Source: Halomonas sp.
GTDB lineage: Bacteria; Pseudomonadota; Gammaproteobacteria; Pseudomonadales; Halomonadaceae
Direction of reading: 5' to 3'
DNA length: 64,000 bases
Assembly (NCBI RefSeq): GCF_011050415.1
Contig: NZ_DRFS01000002.1
Location: 1-64,000 of the forward strand
The notes under the pieces are model-generated. The model made no database searches, was not told the origin of the DNA, and saw only the letters and a list, made by a program, of their open reading frames with translations. This document shows positions 1 through 9,397 of this stretch, piece by piece (the stretch's first letter is position 1; each line of letters begins with the position of its first letter). Position numbers and translations under genes: made by a program.

Positions 1-105
1 GTTCAAGATTACGCCACTCGCTGGCTCTGGCATTACAATAACGAGCGCCCTAATATGGGGCTCGGAGGGATTACCCCTCAACAGAAACTGGCCGCTGTGG
101 TCTGA
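1..105 (+). CDS. IS3-family transposase OrfB, C-terminal 34 residues
   Basis: The first reading frame is open from the window edge to a TGA at 103-105. It encodes the conserved tail of IS3-family OrfB (rve integrase) proteins, with the run WHYNNERPNMGLGGITPQQ, which is diagnostic of the end of the DDE integrase core. The DDE catalytic residues lie upstream, outside the window. It is therefore a partial gene here, and whether the element is complete cannot be told. Confidence 0.8.
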   Translation, partial: VQDYATRWLWHYNNERPNMGLGGITPQQKLAAVV

Positions 106-145
106 AGTCTACTTTTGAAACCCTCTAAAAATGGGGGGATTACCA
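1..145 (+). mobile_element. Right end of an IS3-family insertion sequence (partial)
   Basis: The window opens inside the second ORF of an IS3-type element. About 40 bases follow its stop codon and end in a C-rich/G-rich terminal sequence; read from the outside inward this gives TGGTAATCCCCCC, which fits the TG...CA termini of IS3 elements and places the end at about 145. The left part is outside the window, so family subgroup and target duplication cannot be checked. The end lies inside the operon of the lasso locus, directly beyond the ABC exporter gene. Confidence 0.6.
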
Positions 146-387
146 CGGCAACTACCTAACGGATTCCGCACCCTTATCTTTTCGCCCTTAGTTTCGACAT
201 ACGGGACGCGAGCATTACGCCTTATCGCCATGCCGCTGGTCGGGCTTTGCACTTGCGCTGGTGTAACTGAGCTGTCATCGAGACTTATCAGCAACGGAAC
301 ACGACCATTGAGCTGGTGCACAACGCTTTTAGTGCGAGTTTTATTGACGCCATCTTGTCGCGCATCCTTTAAGTTCCCCAACGTCAT
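109..387 (-). CDS. Unrecognised ORF after the lasso exporter, apparently truncated by the IS
   Basis: This 92-codon frame starts 4 bases after the stop of the ABC exporter, as expected for the next gene of the operon. Its last codons and stop lie inside the IS end (below about 146), so only about 80 residues are native. I do not recognise it: it is polar, has no membrane segment, and shows none of the motifs of the Asn-synthetase-like lasso cyclase (no SGGLDS ATP-pyrophosphatase loop in this short stretch). It could be a truncated gene or a chance frame in degraded DNA. Confidence 0.3.
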   Translation of the reverse strand: MTLGNLKDARQDGVNKTRTKSVVHQLNGRVPLLISLDDSSVTPAQVQSPTSGMAIRRNARVPYVETKGEKIRVRNPLGSCRGNPPIFRGFQK

Positions 388-2123: not shown

Positions 2124-2822
2124 CTAGATTTCAACAATCGGACACATTCTCTCAGGCAAGCTCGGGTCATCGCCTAGCACTTTTCCCTCAACCTCAACCC
2201 AAGCGTGTGACAAGAAGTCGTATCGCTGAACTCCTATACGGAACGTGATACAGACACCAAGTGAAAGAAGTAGTCGTGATAGCGACATGGAAAACTCCAG
2301 GCATTCCACACGATAAGGCACCCAGAGTGCTACCTCTGCTATAGCGTTAGCAGCGCACGCGCAAATTCGATTATGCTCACTGGTTTCAGACGGTATGCGT
2401 ATTGAATGCGCCTGTGCAGCTTTTAGCGCACGTAGACTATTCATTGCAGTGTGAAACCCTCGCGTCGATAGCAAAGTCTTGATCCAAAACAAAGTTTGAA
2501 GCGCGCGGAGACTCATCCATTTAACTGAAACTGTTTGGTGAAATTGGCGAGCAAACCGCCACTCGTAGTCGCCAATCCCGTGTTCCTGTACGGTCACTCT
2601 CCGGATCGACTGCCGTTGGCTGGAGAGTTCGAGTAATCCTGAATTGAGCAGTTCTTGAACGAGCGCTGACTGTTTGTTTCCCTCCATTAGCGCCATCTCA
2701 AGTTCTAGGCTGGTCGGTGCTTCTAAGATGACGTAACGGTCTCGTTGCTCATCAAGAATGATGAATTCACCATTAAGAAGGACGTAGTGAACAAATTTGC
2801 TAAACGTGGGATAAACCTCCAT
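2124..2822 (-). CDS. Lasso peptide biosynthesis protein B (RRE plus transglutaminase-like leader peptidase)
   Basis: The 232-residue product has two parts. Residues 1-80 resemble a PqqD-like leader-recognition domain (run VLLNGEFIILDEQRDRYVIL). Residues about 100-225 form a lasso B2 cysteine protease with the triad visible as Cys174 in VECLEFS, His206 in SHAWVEVEG and an Asp in GDD at 218-219. It should bind the precursor leader and cut it off. The longest frame begins at 2915, but that start lies in a perfect hairpin; the ATG at 2822 has GGAG seven bases upstream and is preferred. It follows the precursor gene and precedes the exporter. Confidence 0.88.
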   Translation of the reverse strand: MEVYPTFSKFVHYVLLNGEFIILDEQRDRYVILEAPTSLELEMALMEGNKQSALVQELLNSGLLELSSQRQSIRRVTVQEHGIGDYEWRFARQFHQTVSVKWMSLRALQTLFWIKTLLSTRGFHTAMNSLRALKAAQAHSIRIPSETSEHNRICACAANAIAEVALWVPYRVECLEFSMSLSRLLLSLGVCITFRIGVQRYDFLSHAWVEVEGKVLGDDPSLPERMCPIVEI

Positions 2823-2891
2823 GTCATGGCTCCGGGGTTCGCTGGACAGGGATGGCCGCATGTAAAAGGCGGAACATAGAAGTGACAATGA

Positions 2892-2918
2892 GGCATGTCG
2901 CACTAGGTGCGACATGCC
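2892..2918 (-). promoter_or_regulatory. Perfect 12-bp hairpin between lasso precursor and B gene
   Basis: GGCATGTCGCAC and its exact reverse complement flank a 3-base loop. The hairpin begins 17 bases after the precursor stop and has no T-run, so it is a better candidate for an mRNA 3'-protecting or attenuating element than for a full terminator. Such an element would let the precursor be made in excess over the processing enzymes. Confidence 0.6.
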
Positions 2919-2934
2919 AGTTAGGCACTAGGCC

Positions 2935-3084
2935 TTAGGTCCACGGATCCCGCCAAACAGCATAGGAACCCTCAATAATGGCACCGCCGCCTCCCCCGCG
3001 AGTTGCACTGCTCGCTTTAAAGGTAGATGCCTTTTGACGTAGCACGCTGGGTAGGTGCTTCTTCACGATATTTTTCTTCAACAT
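2935..3084 (-). CDS. Lasso peptide precursor (49 aa; leader 29, predicted core 20)
   Basis: ATG at 3084 is preceded by AAAAGGAG at ideal spacing. The product has a basic leader (MLKKNIVKKHLPSVL...) ending ...SSATR and a core that starts with five glycines. Thr at position -2 before Gly1 is the hallmark of lasso leader cleavage. Glu9 of the core is correctly placed for a 9-residue Gly1-Glu9 macrolactam; an 11-residue loop/tail GSYAVWRDPWT follows, with Trp15, Arg16 and Trp19 as possible steric plugs. The adjacent B protease and exporter support the call. Only 150 bases long, it escapes ordinary ORF length cut-offs. Topology and activity are unknown. Confidence 0.88.
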   Translation of the reverse strand: MLKKNIVKKHLPSVLRQKASTFKASSATRGGGGGAIIEGSYAVWRDPWT

Positions 3085-3388
3085 GTCTTTCTCCTTTTAA
3101 GGCTTTGTTTCAATTCCGACGTCGGCCTAATGAGGTTATCGGGGATGATAAGACTGCGCACCTGTCCATCTGGATAGTCATATGCTGGCTTACCCCGCAT
3201 TCGAGCAACACTTGCCATATTCTTGTGATTACATGACAGCCACTTGCTAGCTCGACAGCTAATAGATAGTTATCAGGTTCAGTCATGGAGAAGAGCACTA
3301 GCCAGAAGAGTAAATTGAGGCCGGTTAATACACTCTTACCCTACGGCGGTGATCGGTAAAATAAGACAGTAAAGAATAGAAATTGGGG
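3085..3388. other. Intergenic region upstream of the lasso precursor
   Basis: This 304-base gap separates the end of the LuxI-type gene from the lasso precursor, both on the minus strand. It holds the lux-box-like palindrome at 3162-3177 and a perfect CCGACGTCGG palindrome at 3116-3125. No convincing extra gene was found: the 58-residue minus frame starting at 3286 has no ribosome-binding site. The precursor promoter should lie here. Confidence 0.6.
3162..3177 (-). promoter_or_regulatory. Candidate LuxR-type operator upstream of the lasso precursor
   Basis: On the minus strand this reads CTATCCAGATGGACAG, a 16-base dyad with 6 of 8 base pairs symmetric, centred about 85 bases before the precursor ATG. 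A related sequence lies upstream of the LuxI-type gene (4192-4207). Position and shared half-site CTATCCA suggest the site bound by the neighbouring LuxR-type protein. The match is to the neighbour and to general lux-box form, not to a characterised box, so confidence is moderate to low. Confidence 0.35.
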
Positions 3389-4191: not shown

Positions 4192-4207
4192 CTAACCGAA
4201 TGGATAG
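4192..4207 (-). promoter_or_regulatory. Candidate LuxR-type operator upstream of the LuxI-type gene
   Basis: Read on the minus strand this is CTATCCATTCGGTTAG, 11 of 16 identical to the element upstream of the lasso precursor and in the same orientation relative to its downstream gene. Its centre is about 73 bases before the synthase ATG. The dyad is weaker (5 of 8 pairs). Autoinducer synthase genes commonly have such a box, giving positive feedback. Confidence 0.35.
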
Positions 4208-7096: not shown

Positions 7097-7387
7097 ATGG
7101 AAGAAGCACAGGTCTGGATGAAGATAGTAATTCAAGCCGTTGCTTGCCTGATAATGGTTGGCGGTATCATCGGCATTTTTATAGAGCGCGCTCGAACTAA
7201 ACGAGGTGTCGGAGTCCGTGTAATACAGCTGGCGACAGTATTGCTAGTTCTGCCAGTAATCTTAATTCTGGCACTTGAAGGCGTATTAGAAAACCAGACC
7301 ACAGCGGCTCTGTTAGGTACAGTGGTTGGGTATGTTCTATCTGGAATCGGTAAAGATGAAAAAACCAAGCCCAGCAGCTCGAACTAA
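7097..7387 (+). CDS. Integron cassette 1: small two-TM hypothetical protein (96 aa)
   Basis: The 96-residue product has two hydrophobic helices (about residues 8-28 and 42-62), a basic loop between them (ERARTKRGVGVR), a glycine-rich third hydrophobic stretch near 70-83 and a polar lysine/serine-rich tail. It should be an inner-membrane protein. The stop codon directly abuts the attC left core, a compact arrangement typical of gene cassettes. AGGT lies upstream of the ATG. No family recognised and no function claimed. Confidence 0.6.
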   Translation: MEEAQVWMKIVIQAVACLIMVGGIIGIFIERARTKRGVGVRVIQLATVLLVLPVILILALEGVLENQTTAALLGTVVGYVLSGIGKDEKTKPSSSN

Positions 7388-7465
7388 ACCTAACCAGACC
7401 ATTAAGTTCGCGCACTGCGTGCGCCGGACCTCATTTCACTCGGCCGCTTATGGCGGGCGTTAGCT
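7388..7465 (+). repeat. attC recombination site 1 (78 bp)
   Basis: Left core ACCTAAC (7388-7394) and right core GTTAGCT (7459-7465) enclose an imperfect palindrome containing GCGCAC-tgc-GTGCGC and a right arm GGCCGCTTATGGCGGGCGTTAG. The left core is an exact complement of the right core at 7058-7064, as expected if the DNA between them once circularised as a cassette. Confidence 0.8.
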
Positions 7466-7467
7466 AT

Positions 7468-7896
7468 ATGAACGAAGAAGAATGCTGGAATCACATCGTG
7501 TCGCTTGATGAAGAGCTCTTAAAGGGCGGGGTCATCCTGTCAGAGTGGTGCTCTTTTATCATCCGAGAATCGGACTTGGCGTTTGTGCATGGAGCAAACC
7601 TAGCATCAATATTGACGGCAGTTTCTGGGATTGAAACCTATCTGCGCTCCGAGTATTCCGAGAAAGAGCGCAGCAGCCTCTTTGAGCTAATTGACCGTAC
7701 TCCCATAGCAGACGACCTTCGATCTGATTTGCACAAGTTACGGAAGTACCGAAATAAGTGGGTGCATATAAATGACCCATGGGATGATCAGAAGCTGCTT
7801 GATGATCCTGAGGCGTCGGAAAAAGAGCTAGAAAAAATGGCTCTGTTCGCTGCTAGAGCGCTTAGAAGAACGATTTATGAGAGTCATTGGGTCTAA
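7468..7896 (+). CDS. Integron cassette 2: HEPN-like protein (Rx4H motif)
   Basis: The 142-residue all-alpha-looking protein contains RKYRNKWVH, in which Arg95 and His100 form the Rx4H motif of HEPN ribonuclease-type domains, after a helix with GIETYLR. HEPN proteins often act as toxins or in phage defence, but DUF-type relatives without demonstrated activity exist. I start it at 7468; an upstream in-frame ATG at 7450 would place the first codons in the attC site of the previous cassette. No antitoxin-like partner is present in the same cassette. Confidence 0.6.
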   Translation: MNEEECWNHIVSLDEELLKGGVILSEWCSFIIRESDLAFVHGANLASILTAVSGIETYLRSEYSEKERSSLFELIDRTPIADDLRSDLHKLRKYRNKWVHINDPWDDQKLLDDPEASEKELEKMALFAARALRRTIYESHWV

Positions 7897-7899
7897 AAT

Positions 7900-7977
7900 G
7901 GCTAACCAAGCAATTAAATTCGCTCCCTATGGTCGCCGGACGCTCGTTCCTCGCGCCGTTTATTGCGGGCGTTAGCA
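7900..7977 (+). repeat. attC recombination site 2 (78 bp)
   Basis: Left core GGCTAAC (7900-7906) and right core GTTAGCA (7971-7977) flank a palindromic region; the right arm CGCGCCGTTTATTGCGGGCGTTAG is close to that of site 1. The left core complements the right core of site 1 at 6 of 7 positions, bounding cassette 2. Confidence 0.8.
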
Positions 7978-8011
7978 GTTCAGGTAGTTTCGGAGTTATT
8001 TGTGAGGGAAT

Positions 8012-9397
8012 ATGGCAAAAGATGAAGGATTGATTATTCACTTTGATGAAGAACAAAGAAAAGATCTAATCAAAGGTGATAACGAGGGAGCTAATTTTTC
8101 TGATGCTCTTAGCGTTCCTGATTGGGAGATGAAACAGTTACAAGTTGTATTGTTATCGTTCTCGGGTACAACTATTGATTATATTTGTCTTGCAAAAAAA
8201 GGAAGCAGAGTAGCTACAGCAAAATCACGTGTAGAATTTTATGATCTAGTTGAACTTGATAATGTAAAACTATCAGAAATAGAAGAAAAGCTTGGGGTTC
8301 AGAAAAAGTTAGTATTTGTTAAAAGTTCAAGTGGTCAAGGTGGTCGAATTCCTACTAAGACTTGGGTTGCTACATTGGAAATACTTAAGGAGTTGCGGAC
8401 ATACAAAAAGAGTGAAATTGAACGCCTAATTTCTCTCAAATCGGTCTCAAAATATACCTTTGGAGGGGGTTACGCGGATCAACTAAGCCAGGAGCGAGAA
8501 GCATTGGGTGCTGCACTTGATATATTCAGTGGGTCAAATATTTTGAGAAAAGAAGTCCTTAGTTCTTGGGCTCCTAACATTGAAGATGTTAAAGACTTGG
8601 ATGATGGTGATTTAACTGCGACGTTATCGATTAATGATATGCAGAAATCTAGTTTTATATCAGGCATAGCTTCGCGTCACATACAAGAAGAATCTGCTCT
8701 TCAGCATGATCTCGTCAACTGGGAGGGAGAGTCTGCACAATTTCATGAAATGGGGGTGTCTTCATTTCAACAAGGTAGCAGAATCCTAGATATTGTTTAT
8801 GCAAATAAGAACTCTTTAGAACATACACTTGGTGTCGATCTTATTTATTATAACCAAGAATTTCATTCTTTTGTTCTAGTTCAATATAAGTTAATGAAAG
8901 ATAAGAGTGATGCAGAGGGGTACTACTATAGGCCTGACGGACAACTAGAAAAAGAACTAGCACGAATGGATGAGTTTTCAAAACAATATCCTGCTGATAG
9001 TGAAATAAATAGCCATGAACAGTACAGGTTAAACCCTGATGGTTTTTTATTTAAAATGGTTCCATGCAGGGGAGTTCAAGCAGCCTCATCGCAGCTTATT
9101 TCCGGAATGTACATTACTCGTGAGTATATGCAGTTTCTTCTTGGGAATGGAGGCCCTAAAGGAAAAAATGGAGGGCGAATTATTAGCTTTAAAAATTCCC
9201 CACGATACCTTACTAATACAGAATTTTCTTCCTCAGTGAATCGCGGCTGGATAGGCAGTAAGATGAATCAAAGTGATATTTTAGAAAAAATCGTCAAAGT
9301 ATTTTTAGAAACAGGCAGGGCCATTATTGTCGCTGTCGAGAGAGAAACTGCTAACAAATCAAATCACTCGGACAGCACAAGCGCTCCCGGTGTTTGA
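8012..9397 (+). CDS. Integron cassette 3, gene 1: putative PD-(D/E)xK-type nuclease, defence candidate
   Basis: The 461-residue protein is notably AT-rich for this window. I do not recognise a named family over its length. Residues 272-295 read TLGVDLIYYNQEFHSFVLVQYK, giving Asp276 followed by Gln291-x-Lys293, the D...QxK arrangement seen in Mrr-like members of the PD-(D/E)xK nuclease superfamily. The N-terminal half is mixed alpha/beta without other motifs. GAGGGA lies just before the ATG. It is followed 26 bases later by a SIR2-like gene without an attC between them, so both travel as one cassette. Confidence 0.5.
   Translation: MAKDEGLIIHFDEEQRKDLIKGDNEGANFSDALSVPDWEMKQLQVVLLSFSGTTIDYICLAKKGSRVATAKSRVEFYDLVELDNVKLSEIEEKLGVQKKLVFVKSSSGQGGRIPTKTWVATLEILKELRTYKKSEIERLISLKSVSKYTFGGGYADQLSQEREALGAALDIFSGSNILRKEVLSSWAPNIEDVKDLDDGDLTATLSINDMQKSSFISGIASRHIQEESALQHDLVNWEGESAQFHEMGVSSFQQGSRILDIVYANKNSLEHTLGVDLIYYNQEFHSFVLVQYKLMKDKSDAEGYYYRPDGQLEKELARMDEFSKQYPADSEINSHEQYRLNPDGFLFKMVPCRGVQAASSQLISGMYITREYMQFLLGNGGPKGKNGGRIISFKNSPRYLTNTEFSSSVNRGWIGSKMNQSDILEKIVKVFLETGRAIIVAVERETANKSNHSDSTSAPGV

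Follow-up and report, generated by a model that had tools for sequence, protein, structure and literature searches.

A predicted class II lasso peptide operon in Halomonas with an adjoining acyl-homoserine lactone circuit and a split cyclase gene

Does a Halomonas locus in which a short ORF, a leader peptidase gene and an exporter gene lie together encode a lasso peptide, what would switch it on, and does the strain that carries it make the product? The original prediction, made on a small part of the window (the whole 64,000-nt stretch of Halomonas sp. DNA analysed here), left the cyclase unmentioned, and no intact cyclase gene lies beside A, B and D. The reading that we favour, at a probability of roughly 85%, is that the locus specifies a class II lasso peptide, GGGGGAIIEGSYAVWRDPWT, with a predicted 9-residue ring, from an A-B-D-C operon apparently under its own acyl-homoserine lactone (AHL) circuit, and that the cyclase gene C was recently broken in this strain. 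Table 1 lists the features of the locus.

Table 1. Features of the lasso locus (window positions unless another sequence is named).
Feature	Position	Strand	Basis or remark
IS3-like right end	1..144	+	splits C after codon 81; runs off the contig start
C 5′ fragment, first 81 codons of predicted macrolactam synthetase	145..387	-	64% identity to L009 C residues 1-81
D, ABC exporter, up to 592 aa	392..2170	-	PF00664 and PF00005; longest ORF overlaps B, start codon uncertain
B, leader peptidase, 232 aa	2124..2822	-	NF033537, PF13471, conserved triad
Perfect hairpin between A and B, GGCATGTCGCAC CTA GTGCGACATGCC	2892..2918	-	present in all five loci
A, predicted lasso precursor, 49 aa	2935..3084	-	ORF with strong RBS; orthologues at same operon position in L009-L012
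lux box CTATCCAGATGGACAG	3162..3177	-	77 nt upstream of A; putative site
luxI, AHL synthase, 245 aa	3389..4126	-	PF00765, 39.8 bits (cut-off 24)
lux box CTATCCATTCGGTTAG	4192..4207	-	before luxI; putative site
luxR, autoinducer-binding transcription activator, 240 aa	4448..5170	+	PF03472 and PF00196 over cut-off
C remainder	L002:146-1481 (contig C31)		starts near contig end, behind the other end of the IS

Precursor, protease and exporter

Using B as query, one scan of named genomes recovered four related loci. Intact A-B-D-C operons are present in Halomonas sp. RGIG5693 (L009), Aidingimonas halophila (L010) and A. lacisalsi (L011); in Billgrantia kenyensis (L012) the precursor is kept and an IS21-like element occupies the 5′ end of C. 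Counting the Halomonas sp. of the window, the precursor was found in five loci from three genera, with the same length and the same place in all four relatives, each of which also carries a D orthologue.

The A ORF reads MLKKNIVKKHLPSVLRQKASTFKASSATR followed by GGGGGAIIEGSYAVWRDPWT, that is, a leader of residues 1-29 ending in Thr-Arg and a core of residues 30-49. It consists of 49 codons and a stop, preceded by the Shine-Dalgarno sequence AAAAGGAGAAAGACATG, and so bears out the 49-residue precursor with a good ribosome site that had been proposed. Of the 444 short ORFs with an ATG start in the window, 3 fitted the motif T-x-G-x(6,7)-[DE], namely A and a single frame counted from two starts; by itself the motif is weak evidence for a precursor. 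What places A beyond chance is that four other loci of the Halomonadaceae keep it in register and in an equivalent place in the operon.

Comparison of the five cores points to the architecture of the product. The RGIG5693 core is identical to GGGGGAIIEGSYAVWRDPWT, and those of A. halophila, A. lacisalsi and B. kenyensis read GTGGGAIIEGTYAVYRAPWS, GTGGGAIIEGTYAVYRDPWS and GSGGGAIIEGTYAVYRDPWT, respectively. Between the A genes of the window and RGIG5693, the seven nonsynonymous changes are confined to the leader, leaving the core untouched. All five loci share G1, GGG at positions 3-5, AII at 6-8 and E9, with position 2 free to be G, T or S. The invariance of G1 and E9 backs the leader/core boundary and the Glu9-closed ring of the original prediction, and a 9-residue ring is the best reading of the core sequence. 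An 8-residue ring starting at Gly2 was rejected, since position 2 varies, relatives having Thr or Ser there. The Thr at -2 of the leader, which had been named as a hallmark, is indeed present in the window, as well as in RGIG5693 and B. kenyensis, but it is not fixed in the family, both Aidingimonas precursors having Ile. The core had not been recognised as that of any characterised lasso peptide, and a search of subscription-free literature, which gave no match to it, is consistent with this.

All five loci have the hairpin that separates A from B, one of its base pairs having changed on both sides, from T-A to C-G. Its folding gave z = -4.9 to -5.3 against shuffled sequences in the three loci folded across it (the stretch folded for B. 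kenyensis missed the hairpin). We regard it as a probable mRNA processing or attenuation element favouring A over B.

B scored 71.5 bits against NF033537 (lasso_biosyn_B2; cut-off 33) and also matched PF13471. The proposed protease with Cys174, His206 and an Asp was recovered, its numbering being correct for the M32 start, and the triad Cys174/His206/Asp218 is invariant in six B proteins. We preferred the start codon at 2822, since the alternative ATG at 2915 is part of the conserved hairpin and ATG 2822 has a ribosome-binding site, CGGAG, 7 nt ahead of it that is conserved across loci. An alignment of B with annotated plasmid-borne lasso B proteins of E. coli began at residue 7 and covered 97% of B. 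The RRE domain that the original prediction had assigned to B, which would be PqqD-like and lie at the N-terminus, found no independent confirmation. An AlphaFold2 model built on five sequences (mean pLDDT 46) suggested, at low confidence, a strand-strand-strand-helix pattern at the N-terminus; Foldseek with this model gave no matches, nor did hhalign of B against one PqqD protein (RRE), and a search of the PDB by sequence with B and C returned nothing relevant. The ABC exporter expected after B is present in the form of D.

The LuxI/LuxR pair and its putative operators

Upstream of A, outside the part of the window to which the original prediction referred, lies a divergent luxI/luxR pair. 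LuxI aligned with a solved 4-coumaroyl-HSL synthase, and LuxR aligned with the CviR, RhlR and LasR structures across both domains. Putative lux boxes of the form CT-N12-AG, a palindrome, were met before both A and luxI. The pattern gave 3 matches (two sites) in the window against 0 in shuffled sequences, with one other site in the 4.7-Mb genome, although this rarity is partly built in and indicative only, the pattern having been defined after the sites were seen. The palindrome CTRTCCNNNYGGNYAG precedes both A and luxI, both sites being present in each of the five loci; the A box lies 77-78 nt before A throughout and is followed, at the spacing of a -10 element, by GATAAC/T. No consensus sigma-70 promoter or terminator was found near A.

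The pair and the operon also travel together. luxI and luxR adjoin the operon in all five loci; in Aidingimonas they stand on its other side and are still linked. Among 275 Halomonadaceae genomes, this LuxI (E <= 1e-8) occurred in 5, exactly the five with the lasso operon, a coincidence with a probability near 5e-10 under random placement, whose true weight is smaller since the five loci share descent and are not five independent events. AHL production has been reported as widespread in Halomonadaceae, and hanI-type luxI has been amplified from 29 species (PMC4187203). The LuxI found here appears distinct from the hanI type, since none of the remaining 270 family genomes gave a match to it at that threshold.

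We conclude from these sequence comparisons that the LuxI/LuxR pair probably switches the lasso operon on. Its adjoining the operon by chance, with no control over it and with the A box serving another purpose, is an unlikely alternative: it can draw on reviews in which the regulation of lasso operons is described as poorly understood (PMC6963729, PMC7549694), but it is opposed by the confinement of LuxI to the five operon-bearing genomes, by a linkage that survived the altered gene order in Aidingimonas, and by the presence of one palindrome before luxI and A alike in every locus. Apart from this pair, a 242-aa LuxR-like ORF without a LuxI partner was seen, by eye only, on contig C31 (L047:2803-3531), ∼1.3 kb downstream of the C fragment.

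The split cyclase gene

In L009, L010 and L011, C encodes ∼524 aa and starts a few bases from where D ends. In the window only the 5′ fragment follows D, and ACGG at 145-148 is the target duplication of the insertion sequence (IS). Three left and three right ends of this element occur in the genome, and each left end has a single right partner by its 4-bp duplication (ACGG, ATAA or TCTC). Joining the two C flanks over the empty site gave an in-frame 524-aa ORF with 86% identity to RGIG5693 C and no gaps or stops, which indicates that the insertion is probably recent. The C family has an Asn_synthase domain with an invariant SGGCDS loop; its best NCBIfam match was a macrolactam cyclase model, at 85.6 bits (cut-off 300), and C reached the curated cut-off of none of the lasso cyclase models.

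Since C is split after codon 81, the source Halomonas strain is, judging from sequence, probably a non-producer of the finished lasso peptide, and the locus is probably an inactive member, by descent, of the lasso clusters. The mature product that had been predicted from the locus is consequently not backed for this strain. Loss of C activity is likely and not certain, because the 3′ part of C is open and could start from a TTG in the IS end.

Production of the peptide by the strain, either through a sufficiently active 449-aa 3′ part of C, transcribed and translated out of the IS end, or through a cyclase encoded on contig C20 acting in trans, seems improbable to us, though several observations lean towards it. 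The 3′ part is free of stops and carries the entire Asn_synthase domain, so that residual product is possible, if unlikely; the first ∼80 residues of C are little conserved (64% identity to RGIG5693, versus 90% for the rest), and the distant Rhizobium C aligns with C only from residue 70. In B. kenyensis, the IS21-like element (L012:7769-10018), independent of the window's insertion, likewise struck the 5′ end of C, near codon 6, and left the remainder open. Furthermore, the genome does encode a second cyclase-like protein. Against this, the 3′ part lacks VRNPLGSCR, conserved residues immediately ahead of the break, the initial 400 bases of L002 showed no promoter-like site, and the C20 enzyme has its own PqqD and B2 proteins and YxxP-type precursors and matches different cyclase models.

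The relatives also bear on the nature of the substrate. A precursor that is processed by B and exported as a linear peptide of another kind would fit the replacement of Thr at -2 by Ile in two relatives, but the invariant G1 and E9 and the presence of a C gene in the operon of every relative retaining A make this very unlikely. Least credible is that C is intact and its split an artefact of a wrong contig join: the fragments do sit at the ends of two separate contigs in a draft assembly, but the IS ends pair one to one by distinct duplications, this pair restores a full-length C in frame, and the genome was found to hold no second copy of C.

Insertion into C was not the only sign of decay. 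In G078, the genome of a congener of B. kenyensis, the region G078:C3:615000-632000 (L045) holds a truncated B and a long D, a remnant of the operon in which no precursor, cyclase or LuxI was recognised. Together with the separate transposon in B. kenyensis C, this suggests that the lasso module decays repeatedly.

Proposed pathway and known systems

In the intact relatives, LuxI would make an acyl-homoserine lactone, and LuxR with this signal would bind the lux boxes before luxI and A and turn the operon on, with the hairpin after A holding expression of B, D and C below that of A. B would bind the 29-residue leader and cut after Arg29. C would activate Glu9 and link it to Gly1 with the tail enclosed, so that 9 residues form the ring and 11 the tail, and D would export the peptide and protect the producer. 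In the source strain the C step has probably been lost through the IS. The genes, the lux boxes, the hairpin, their conservation and the co-occurrence of LuxI with the operon are read directly from sequence, and we infer these biochemical steps, together with direct LuxR control, a threaded fold and an antibacterial role.

More tentatively, at somewhat under even odds, we propose that the AHL circuit acts directly via the lux boxes, that operon and circuit are inherited as one mobile or often-lost module of Halomonadaceae, that transposons repeatedly strike the 5′ end of C, and that non-producers may keep signal, precursor, protease and exporter. If true, this would allow a signal-on, immune and non-producing 'cheater' state. 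The family offers a compact case for the study of lasso regulation, with AHL synthase, receptor and putative operator all adjoining the operon, and Halomonas sp. RGIG5693 provides an intact source of the identical core. It also holds a caution for genome mining: precursor, B and exporter together can look convincing and yet belong to a dead cluster if the cyclase gene coincides with the end of a contig.

What sets the locus apart from other fused-B proteobacterial lasso clusters is its operon order, its core and its dedicated AHL pair. Like it, microcin J25 and citrocin (mcjABCD) come from fused-B proteobacterial operons with an ABC exporter, but their operon order differs and their ring has 8 residues, versus the 9 predicted here. 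Membership of the precursor in the acinetodin/klebsidin/J25 family (NF033471) was rejected, A scoring 10.4 bits, below the curated cut-off of 23. The core of capistruin is unrelated to GGGGGAIIEGSYAVWRDPWT. The capistruin cluster (capABCD, Burkholderia thailandensis) does resemble the locus in its precursor of 47 aa (49 here), 9-residue ring, class II assignment, B protease and ABC exporter D (PMC6963729), but its order is A-B-C-D rather than A-B-D-C. AHLs act on it indirectly, via the repressor ScmR, and no dedicated luxI/luxR is described (PMC6963729). Searching the subscription-free literature for lasso peptides in Halomonas-related genera, or for lasso systems with LuxR/LuxI, returned no such system.

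In a plasmid collection, the closest B (36.5% identity) and C (29.5% identity) outside Halomonadaceae were those of an unannotated lasso-like locus on the Rhizobium leguminosarum plasmid pRlBT01d (L044). Its order, unlike that of the window, is C-B-D, and no luxI or luxR was recognised, by eye only, among the ORFs within ∼6 kb. Paeninodin-type split-B clusters (PqqD, B2, cyclase and kinase) share the same reaction logic, but have separate B1 and B2 proteins and a YxxP leader motif.

A second lasso-like locus, on contig C20 (L048:8846-17671), resembles these paeninodin-type clusters. It encodes a cyclase-like protein (NF033535, 367 bits, below the cut-off of 525), a PqqD-like B1 (75.7 bits, cut-off 80), a B2 over cut-off (79.4 bits) and an HprK-related kinase. 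Two short ORFs in it carry the YxxP lasso leader motif (NF033521), one of them scoring over cut-off, and have no obvious Asp/Glu at the ring position.

Finally, no integron integrase scored over cut-off in the genome. At 7386-7980 of the window, two similar imperfect palindromes of ∼80 bases with RYYYAAC/GTTRRRY-like ends lie between the small ORFs at 7097-7387, 7450-7896 and 8012-9397, and resemble the attC sites of an integron cassette array.
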